A DNA stretch of 37,752 nt from Treponema sp. (GTDB lineage: Bacteria; Spirochaetota; Spirochaetia; Treponematales; Breznakiellaceae), in assembly GCA_031256635.1 (NCBI GenBank), contig JAIRQF010000115.1, positions 1 through 37,752 on the forward strand, given 5' to 3'. Numbering within the stretch: position 1 is the first letter of the stretch; each line of letters opens with the position of its first letter. The notes beneath the pieces were generated by a model that ran no database searches, was not told the origin of the DNA, and saw only the letters and a program-made list of their open reading frames with translations. Shown one piece after another: positions 16,856-19,191 of this stretch. The position numbers and the translations under genes are program-made.

Positions 16856-17710
16856 CTATGAAAGCAGCTGTAAAACCGACTGCGCGCGCATATTCGCCTG
16901 CGCAAGCATTGCGGTTCCGGTCTGGTTCAAGATAGCATCCCTTGTATAGTCGACTATCTTGTTAGCCACATTTACATCCCTGATGCGGGATTCTGCAGCC
17001 TGAATATTCTCTGCTGCTATGGCTACGCCCTGAGCTGCCATTTCAAAACGGTTCTGATAAGCGCCAAGATCCGCGCGCTGCTTGGAAACAAGCTTTAACG
17101 CGCTGTCAATGGTACCGATTGCCGCGTTTGCATCAAACGGGTCAGCAATGGAAATTTTTCCCGTGTTGCCCTGTGAGTCATGCAAACCAAGCGCTGATGC
17201 TGTCATGTTGCCAACATAGATTCTTGCGTTCTGATCCATGTTTGCGCCTACCTGCAATTGCATAACTCTTCCTGTAGCTGAATCCATGGCAAATGCGCCT
17301 GTGAGCATATTCATACCGTTGAACTGGGCATGACTTGCAATCCGGTTTACTTCATCAACAAGCTGTGATACTTCAACCTGAATCTGCATGCGATCTTCGT
17401 CGGTGTAGATTCCGTTGGCTGATTGGACAGATAATTCCCTGATACGGTGCAGTATATCCTGGGTTCCCTGAAGATAACCTTCGGTAGTCTGGATAAATGA
17501 CACTCCGTTCATGATATTACGTTCTGCCTGATGTAAACCACGAATCTGGCTTCTCATTTTTTCGGAGACCGCAAGTCCTGACGCGTCATCACCGGCACGG
17601 TTGATCTGTAAACCGGAGGTAAGTTTCTCCATGTTTTTGGTCAATGTGCTCTGGGTAACGCCAAGCTGACGATCTGCGAAGATTGCGCTCATGTTGTGAT
17701 TAATAATCAT
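16856..17710 (-). CDS. flaB: Flagellin core protein, FlaB type (second copy)
   Basis: Periplasmic flagellar filament core subunit, 284 residues, the usual FlaB size. The N-terminal D0/D1 region ([20 protein letters not shown], then the conserved [25 protein letters not shown] type block) and the C-terminal D1/D0 region ([21 protein letters not shown]) are both intact; the central variable part is short, as in other spirochaete core flagellins. GGAGGG gives a strong ribosome site. From gene order I suspect this is the FlaB3 counterpart of T. pallidum; not tested. Its leader has two stem-loops, one with a GGA loop. Confidence 0.96.
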
Positions 17711-17739
17711 TTATATACCCTCCATGTGTAGCGTAACTC

Positions 17740-17754
17740 CGGCAATCCTTGCCG
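17740..17754 (-). promoter_or_regulatory. Leader hairpin with GGA loop before flaB (17710), CsrA-site-like
   Basis: On the mRNA strand CGGCAA-GGA-TTGCCG folds into a 6-bp stem placing GGA in the loop. CAAGGAT matches the core of the published CsrA-selected sequence (CARGGAU). It lies about 17 bases upstream of the GGAGGG ribosome site, itself inside ATGGA. A second stem, TCCGC-TTCT-GCGGA, lies just upstream (17762-17775). Confidence 0.55.
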
Positions 17755-18099
17755 AAGCCGTTCCGCAGAAGCGGATTTAAGGGATGGTTTCGCGCTTGTC
17801 AGGCTTTTTTAAAAGACTGACGGCCGTCCCCTTATCCGCCAACAGAACGAAACGATCGATTTACCGTTTTCCTGATTTCCGCGCGAGGTAATTGCACCTA
17901 ACACGCGGATATTTTCAGATAACAGATAAAATAATCGTTTTGATCTGTCCTGCGCATCTGTCCTCTTAATTTTTGGTTATTAATGCCAGGCAATAAGCGT
18001 CTTGCCATAAATAAAGAAGTCAGACGGCCGGAGGGTTTTTTTTCAAAGAACACTGTACAGCAGCTGAAATCTCGGATGCTGTAACGGCACGAAGAGGGC

Positions 18100-18180: not shown

Positions 18181-19041
18181 TTATTGCAATAATGACAATA
18201 CCGAAGTTGCTCTTTGATTCGCCTGCGCAAGCATTGCAGTTCCTGCTTGATTCAGAATTTGGTCACGAACATAATCAACCATCTGGTTGGCCATGTTGGT
18301 ATCCCTTATTCTGGCTTCTGAGGCCTGCATGTTTTCCGCGCCGATATCAAGGCCGCGAACCGCGTGTTCAAGACGGTTCTGATAACCGCCAAGATCCGCT
18401 CTTTGTTTGCTTATCAGTTTTAAAGCGGAGTCAAGTACGCCTATGGCCGAGTTTGCGCCTTCCGGATGCTCAAGCGTAATGAAGGAATTATCGCCGATAC
18501 TGCGCAGACCAAGGCCTTTTGTGGTCATTGTACCGATGAAAACCTGGGTCCTCTGATCCATGTTCGCGCCGATATGCAGCCACATTGAAGCCGTAACAGT
18601 ATTATTGCCTGCGACCTGCGCAAAACGGCCTGTAAGCATGTTCATGCCGTTAAACTGGGCATGGCTTGCAATTCTGTCGACTTCATCAATAAGAGAAGAA
18701 ACTTCGACCTGAATGTACATTCTGTCTTCTTCGGTGTAGATTCCGTTTGCAGCCTGAACTGCTAATTCCCGCAGGCGCTGAAGAATATCCTGTGATTCCT
18801 GAAGATAGCCTTCCGTTACCTGTATAAAGGAAATTCCGTTCTGAGCATTCTGCGAAGCCTGATTAAGGCCGCGAATCTGGCTGCGTAATTTCTCTGAAAC
18901 CGCAAGACCTGACGCATCGTCACCGGCTCTGTTGATCCGGAGACCCGAGGAGAGTTTCTCCATGTTTTTTGTCAGATAATTCTGTGTTACTTTGAGGGAC
19001 CTGTCAGCGAACATCGCGCTGAGGTTGTGGTTGATGATCAT
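18181..19041 (-). CDS. flaB: Flagellin core protein, FlaB type (first copy)
   Basis: Periplasmic flagellar filament core subunit, 286 residues. Both conserved ends are present ([60 protein letters not shown]). It differs from the second copy mainly in the middle ([20 protein letters not shown]). The ribosome site AAGGAGGATG is very strong. A sigma-28-type promoter lies about 100 bases upstream and the leader carries a GGA-loop hairpin. It probably heads a unit running into the second flaB, flaG and fliD, though hairpins between genes may uncouple their levels. By order it may be the FlaB1 counterpart. Confidence 0.96.
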
Positions 19042-19064
19042 ATCATCCTCCTTGGATAATTAAA

Positions 19065-19080
19065 GAAGCATCCATGCTTC
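19065..19080 (-). promoter_or_regulatory. Leader hairpin with GGA loop before flaB (19041), CsrA-site-like
   Basis: On the mRNA strand GAAGCA-TGGA-TGCTTC forms a stem of 6-7 bp with GGA at the tip; ATGGA fits the ANGGA rule for CsrA. It begins about 12 bases upstream of AGGAGG, within which AAGGA could be a second contact. Confidence 0.55.
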
Positions 19081-19142
19081 CTTTGGTAATAATATCCGTT
19101 TAAACCGTGGAATTGTTTTCCGGACACTATTTTCCATTAGTA

Positions 19143-19170
19143 ATATCGGCAGGTTTATACGCGGACTTTA
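19143..19170 (-). promoter_or_regulatory. Sigma-28 (FliA)-type promoter for flaB
   Basis: Reading the minus strand: TAAAGTCC, then 12 bases, then GCCGATAT. This is close to the consensus TAAAGTTT-N11-GCCGATAA. It predicts a start near 19135 and a leader of about 95 bases. It lies between the Lys-rich gene's stop and flaB, as expected for a late flagellar promoter. Confidence 0.75.
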
Positions 19171-19191
19171 GTCTTTTTTTGGGAATATTTT

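Follow-up and report, generated by a model that had tools for sequence, protein, structure and literature searches.

The GGA-loop hairpin before a Treponema flaB gene is the last arm of the Termite-flg RNA and a candidate CsrA-docking site

A GGA-loop hairpin in the leader of the second flaB gene

The locus raises the question of why a short hairpin with a GGA tip stands just before a flagellin gene, and whether it is a CsrA site, as had been predicted from its sequence. The window analysed here is the whole 37,752-nucleotide stretch of contig JAIRQF010000115.1 (positions 1 to 37,752) from Treponema sp. assembly GCA_031256635.1. Its second flaB, the presumed regulated gene, lies at 16856–17710 on the minus strand, encodes a 284 aa flagellin ORF starting with MIINHN and is one of five flagellin paralogs in the genome. 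Read directly, minus-strand positions 17754–17740 give CGGCAA-GGA-TTGCCG (CGGCAAGGATTGCCG), so that the hairpin is present exactly as predicted, and outward extension of the helix yields a full stem at 17735–17759 (GGCUUCGGCAAGGAUUGCCGGAGUU), here called P4. Folded alone, this stem reaches −13.8 kcal/mol (z −4.7) and none of 200 shuffled sequences was equally stable, a stability far beyond chance. The loop GGA occupies 17748–17746 on the minus strand. The Shine–Dalgarno sequence (SD) follows as ATGGAGGG at 17725–17718, and the GGA within it begins 25 nt past the loop GGA when their starts are compared. The SD feature as a whole covers 17717–17725 on the minus strand (AUGGAGGGU, of which ANGGAGGGU is nearly invariant in the family alignment) and contains both the second ANGGA motif and the target of an anti-SD described below. 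The two A-U pairs flanking the GGA may open to leave the loop C-AAGGAUU-G; the consensus loop of the corresponding Rfam family is drawn likewise (AaGGAUa), with the A-U pairs beside GGA open.

P4 belongs to the Termite-flg RNA

P4 is the 3′, and last, arm of the Termite-flg RNA (RF01729), whose Rfam model extends over 17732–17857 on the minus strand with 65.5 bits against a gathering cut-off of 40. The hairpin thus belongs to a far larger conserved leader RNA, which also has an anti-SD element; the original prediction included neither. Termite-flg was first reported from metagenomes of the termite hindgut, its only listed source, as probably cis-regulatory and not a riboswitch, with no function assigned (Weinberg et al. 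2010, PMC2864571), and we found no function for it in the literature since 2010. As expected for this family, the RNA lies in the 5′ leader of a flagellar gene, with the flaB start at 17710, and the same holds for all 128 copies that we extracted with their flanks from one spirochaete family. This genome carries one copy. RF01729 was present in 124 of 200 genomes of the taxonomic family of the window and in only 7 of 395 genomes spread over the class, all seven from that same family. Other Rfam matches near the paralog leaders (mir-3747 and TD-1) were below the cut-off.

The loop is invariant while the stem changes

All 128 Termite-flg copies stand directly before flaB, and the gene starts with M[IV]IN in every one of them. 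The P4 loop GGA, as ANGGA, was likewise found in 128/128 (125 by automatic search and three by eye across one mismatch), and its distance to the GGA of the SD is 24–26 nt in most copies. One apparent exception proved to be an alignment artefact. The most invariant columns of the alignment are the loop A-N-G-G-A, the SD A-N-G-G-A-G-G-G-U and the P3 loop GCGCGA, while the pairs of the P4 stem vary freely and jointly; pair 454:474, for instance, is paired in 97% of sequences against 71% expected, with five pair types, and is significant in a tree-based null. Two copies have 20–40 additional bases between P4 and the SD, and the insert in one of them (ATGTATC...GATACAT) itself forms a clear hairpin.

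The background was drawn from 257 kb of this genome, which hold 105 other genes preceded by an SD. A GGA-loop hairpin scoring at least 17 was present in the leader of one of these 105 genes and one scoring at least 13 in four, whereas three of the five flagellin leaders reach at least 17 (Fisher p = 0.0002 against the background genes). In the other two, the GGA-loop hairpins are weaker, with stems of 4 bp (CGGC-AUGGAA-GCCG and CGGU-GUGGAA-ACCG), so that a GGA hairpin precedes all five flagellin genes, with differing stems. That the GGA fell by chance into an ordinary stabilizing leader hairpin is so improbable as to be negligible: single GGA-loop hairpins do occur in about 1–4 of the 105 other leaders, but the idea is refuted by a GGA kept in 128/128 copies while the stem changes around it.

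The upstream neighbour of the regulated gene is the first flaB (flagellin ORF at 18181–19041, minus strand). Its leader, which is not Termite-flg, holds the hairpin GGAAGCA-UGGA-UGCUUC at 19062–19083 on the minus strand, with its GGA 22 nt from that of the SD. Upstream, at about 19143–19171 on the minus strand, CTAAAG...CTGCCGATAT resembles what we take to be the consensus of a sigma-28 promoter, which would place the GGA hairpin of the first flaB inside the transcript. Both hairpins are real and their stems are unrelated, as the original prediction had it, and the invariant loop and covarying stem among the 128 relatives strongly support its suggestion that selection, not a recent duplication, is at work. 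In a third type of flaB leader, seen at six loci, the GGA hairpin stands about 60–75 nt before the start, and an extra hairpin lies between it and the SD that may restore the effective distance between the GGA and the SD.

GGA hairpins without the Termite-flg body

A hairpin with GGA in its loop precedes the gene in 75 of 80 flaB loci from named Spirochaetales; it falls within the 75 nt upstream of the start, in most cases between −32 and −39. None of 20 such loci, mostly from non-termite sources, reached the RF01729 cut-off, and only one gave a weak match. The GGA hairpin therefore exists in other spirochaetes without the Termite-flg body, and it is older than the body or independent of it. 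Four loci from rumen or gut Treponema (T. saccharophilum and other gut Treponema) retain the hairpin of the second flaB in place with a loop of AAGAU or ACGAA rather than ANGGA, an apparent loss of the GGA site. The csrA gene is still present in these genomes, but the neighbouring flaB keeps its GGA hairpin in all three of them that were examined, and the loss is thus neutral with regard to CsrA.

CsrA and FliW as candidate readers of the loop

In the genome of the window, csrA directly follows fliW, the two domain matches being 37 bp apart. The CsrA protein (PF02599, 85.5 bits; MLILSRK...VKVFRQE) has L4 and R44, presumably the residues that contact RNA, and FliW matches PF02623 with 147.5 bits. 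Within the family, csrA was detected in 174 of 200 genomes and fliW likewise in 174 of 200; given that both genes are nearly universal, their co-occurrence with the RNA is uninformative. CsrA bridges sites 10–63 nt apart (PMC7652899), and here one ANGGA lies in a hairpin loop and a second GGA at the SD 25 nt away, inside that range. The stem fits less well: most copies of P4 have 8–11 contiguous pairs against the four or fewer typical of CsrA hairpins obtained by SELEX (PMC7652899), which counts against CsrA. Given the adjacency of csrA and fliW, the bridging distance, the parallel with the Campylobacter jejuni flaA leader and the sites reported in Treponema denticola (both taken up below), CsrA is the best candidate reader of the GGA loop. 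The prediction of a CsrA site thus stands as the best explanation by comparison, from csrA next to fliW and an ANGGA loop 25 nt from the ANGGAGGG SD, with CsrA binding itself something that we infer.

Judging from sequence comparison, we consider it reasonably probable that P4 serves as the arm on which CsrA docks in a large leader controlling flaB translation, the extended Termite-flg RNA. One CsrA dimer would bridge the ANGGA of the P4 loop and that of the SD and so keep ribosomes off. FliW would release CsrA during flagellin export, and flagellin output would then follow export, as in a CsrA-FliW partner switch.

The Termite-flg body extends upstream of the Rfam model

The Rfam model appears to be incomplete: covariation supplies three further parts, namely an upstream strand that forms an 18-bp helix, a closing helix and, upstream, the anti-SD element. 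The first 16 bases of the model belong to a strand that we call A1 (17842–17861, minus strand), and its complement was sought upstream. This complement, A0 (17931–17948, minus strand, outside the Rfam model), lies about 10–90 nt upstream in most loci, and in 115 of 126 loci the A0:A1 complementarity was matched by at most 2 of 40 shuffles. The closing helix, P0, joins P0a (17950–17955, GCGCAG) through its core GCAG to P0b (CUGC, 17765–17768), both on the minus strand. We scanned a 125-sequence alignment that included 100 nt of upstream sequence for covariation, unprompted and over every pair of columns; P0 ranked first (176:439, paired 97% against 48% expected), followed closely by A0:A1, P4 and P3. 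In a tree-based null, in which our own script redistributed substitutions along a FastTree tree, ten pairs had E ≤ 0.033, and all of them fall in P0, A0:A1 and its continuation, P3 or P4.

Same-branch compensatory events point the same way: compared with registers slid out of phase, they number 22 vs 0–5 for P0, 32 vs 2–11 for P3, 28 vs 0–6 for P4, 43 vs 2–14 for the distal half of A0:A1 and 10 vs 0–4 for its proximal half. RNAalifold, run on a separate 27-sequence alignment, drew P0, A0:A1, P3 and P4 unprompted, with double changes in 30 of 39 pairs and 153 double-change cells against 52 ± 6.5 when shuffled. Cells with G.U exceed those with A.C by 75 to 9 in P0, 274 to 57 in A0:A1 and 159 to 18 in P4, an excess indicating that the body acts as an RNA of the flaB sense strand. 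These helices suggest that the body would fold into a closed multi-branch structure made of P0, A0:A1, P2/P3 and P4. A pseudoknot between the 5′ GUUUCG and an apical CGAAAC was also considered; it is perfect in some members and lost in others, and A0 explains GUUUCG better.

The P3 hairpin (17780–17832, minus strand) has a conserved apical loop, (N)GCGCGA, near 17788–17796. In the window copy, its arm contains an extra hairpin-forming insert at 17797–17822 (GTCAG...CTGAC), which is also present in two other copies. The apical loop GGCGC (AGCGC in the window, 17788–17796) is complementary to flaB codons 8–9 (17689–17684), and the Ala9 codon is GCC in 107 of the 128 flaB genes that follow a Termite-flg RNA against 0 of 10 paralogs. 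For a kissing interaction between the loop and codons 8–9, four or five pairs are possible in all copies, and covariation is absent.

The body might alternatively sense some other factor, such as a metabolite, a protein (free flagellin, for example) or its own coding region, with P4 bound by that factor or purely structural and CsrA playing no part. The P3 loop, nearly as conserved as the GGA loop and not explained by CsrA, its complementarity to codons 8–9 and the confinement of the body to one family would all suit such a sensor. We nevertheless regard it as improbable, since GGA hairpins occur in other spirochaetes without the body and before paralogs with unrelated stems, a distribution that fits a shared GGA-reading protein.

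An upstream element can pair with the Shine–Dalgarno sequence

Upstream of P0a, nearly all loci carry the conserved element UUCUUUGA(C/A)A..ACCCUC(C), located in the window at 18030–18050 on the minus strand, in which ACCCUCC (18030–18036) is an anti-SD for GGAGGGU. At least six contiguous pairs between anti-SD and SD are possible in 88% of loci, compared with 16% when the element is shuffled, and where the SD deviates (GGAGAGU, GGAAGGU, GGAGGGC, GGAGGAU or GGAGGGA) the element still pairs over 6–8 bases. The bases following ACCCUC also tend to pair with those preceding the SD (GCUAGUA/UACUAGC, CGUUUAG/CUAAACG and UACGGGUAAGC/GCUUACCUGUG are examples), scoring 13.2 within the own locus against 11.3 ± 0.2 on permutation, although the permutation ignores kinship and the difference is weaker than it looks. 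In predicted folds, the SD is paired with a probability of 0.90 overall and, on average, of 0.67 with the 5′ element, and the free fold of the window leader likewise pairs the 18030–18050 element with the SD. This pairing would join the ends of the body and act, beside CsrA, as another lock on the ribosome site.

The part of the element that reads UUCUUUGA(C/A)A, at 18037–18050, is strongly conserved and resembles a −35 box, yet it adjoins an anti-SD that seems to be transcribed. If UUCUUUGACA were indeed a −35 box, the anti-SD would lie outside the transcript, which counts against the anti-SD lock; a −10 box to match it is seen in no more than a few genera, and the neighbouring anti-SD does pair with the leader. 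Were the SD already hidden by the anti-SD, there might be no need for CsrA as a lock, or CsrA might open the leader rather than close it.

Competing pairings of A1

Rfam draws a helix P1 between the 3′ half of A1 and a strand here called A2 (17759–17766, minus strand, its first two bases overlapping P0b), and this helix uses bases that are also needed by A0:A1 and P0. Either the RNA switches between the two pairings or Rfam P1 is an artefact of the likeness between A0 and A2. That P1 is mis-drawn, with A1 pairing only with A0 in a single fold that does not switch, is a reading to which we give an even chance, and it is compatible with the CsrA lock. The mean pair probability is 0.11 for A1:A2 against 0.75–0.83 for A0:A1 (0.39 against 0.52 in the window), RNAalifold picks A0:A1, and the A1:A2 pairs fall below significance in the tree null, where neither helix of the A1 3′ half, with A0 or with A2, is significant alone. 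On the other side, 87.5% of the A1:A2 cells are paired, five of the eight pairs show changes in both partners, and the same-branch compensatory events of A1:A2 (7) exceed those of slid registers (0–3), against 10 for the A1 3′ half with A0.

These last figures would also suit a bistable switch: with A1 on A0, P0 and anti-SD:SD would form and close the ribosome site, with A1 on A2 the site would be open, and a FliW-controlled CsrA dimer on P4 and the SD GGA would select the state. We consider such a switch rather unlikely; if it were real, an RNA switch specific to this lineage would have been added to a CsrA hairpin that is ancient in spirochaetes.

A related possibility is that CsrA activates flaB: the SD would be closed by the anti-SD in the default state, and CsrA on P4 and on the GGA next to the SD would break the anti-SD:SD helix or move A1 from A0 to A2. 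The predicted pairing of the SD (0.90 overall, 0.67 to the 5′ element) means that the CsrA-free leader may be off, and compensatory events are seen for each of the two A1 pairings that exclude one another (10 vs 0–4 and 7 vs 0–3). Against this, the second GGA sits within the SD, which CsrA would cover, and the proven cases that we found in flagellin leaders (C. jejuni flaA, Bacillus subtilis hag and Borrelia burgdorferi flaB) are all repression, so that we hold activation to be improbable.

Comparison with known flagellin leaders

Repression by CsrA docked on P4 would have a parallel in the C. jejuni flaA leader, in which an ANGGA in a hairpin loop and another over the SD lie 21 nt apart, CsrA binding and repression are proven and FliW is the antagonist (PMC4894983). 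The likeness consists of two ANGGA motifs, one in a loop and one at the SD, before a flagellin gene in a genome with both csrA and fliW. The flaA leader differs in being 45 nt long, with two hairpins and proven binding, whereas the leader described here exceeds 200 nt, adds a body and an anti-SD, and would bind CsrA by analogy. In B. subtilis, CsrA represses translation of hag at the SD and FliW antagonizes it within the CsrA-FliW-Hag partner switch (PMC6529632, PMC7652899); both genes are present here too, although hag has no Termite-flg body and regulation of the present flaB is only putative. Closer relatives offer a similar picture: flaB of B. burgdorferi is under CsrA repression (Sze et al. 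2011, cited in PMC9481697), and T. denticola has fliW-csrA with putative CsrA sites near the SDs of flaB1 and flaB2 (PMC9481697). These are, as here, spirochaete flaB genes linked to CsrA, and the text consulted reports no large structured leader for them.

These findings point to CsrA-type control of flagellin as a general trait of spirochaetes, whose flagella are periplasmic and in which flagellin is said to be controlled largely after transcription. With respect to Termite-flg as published, the RNA of the window is a member by score and position, and its hairpin is an arm of a known RNA family. What is new is a probable, and testable, function for Termite-flg through its putative tie to CsrA, its distribution in one family and a revised structure, which questions Rfam P1 and adds three conserved upstream elements that Rfam does not model, A0, P0 and the anti-SD.
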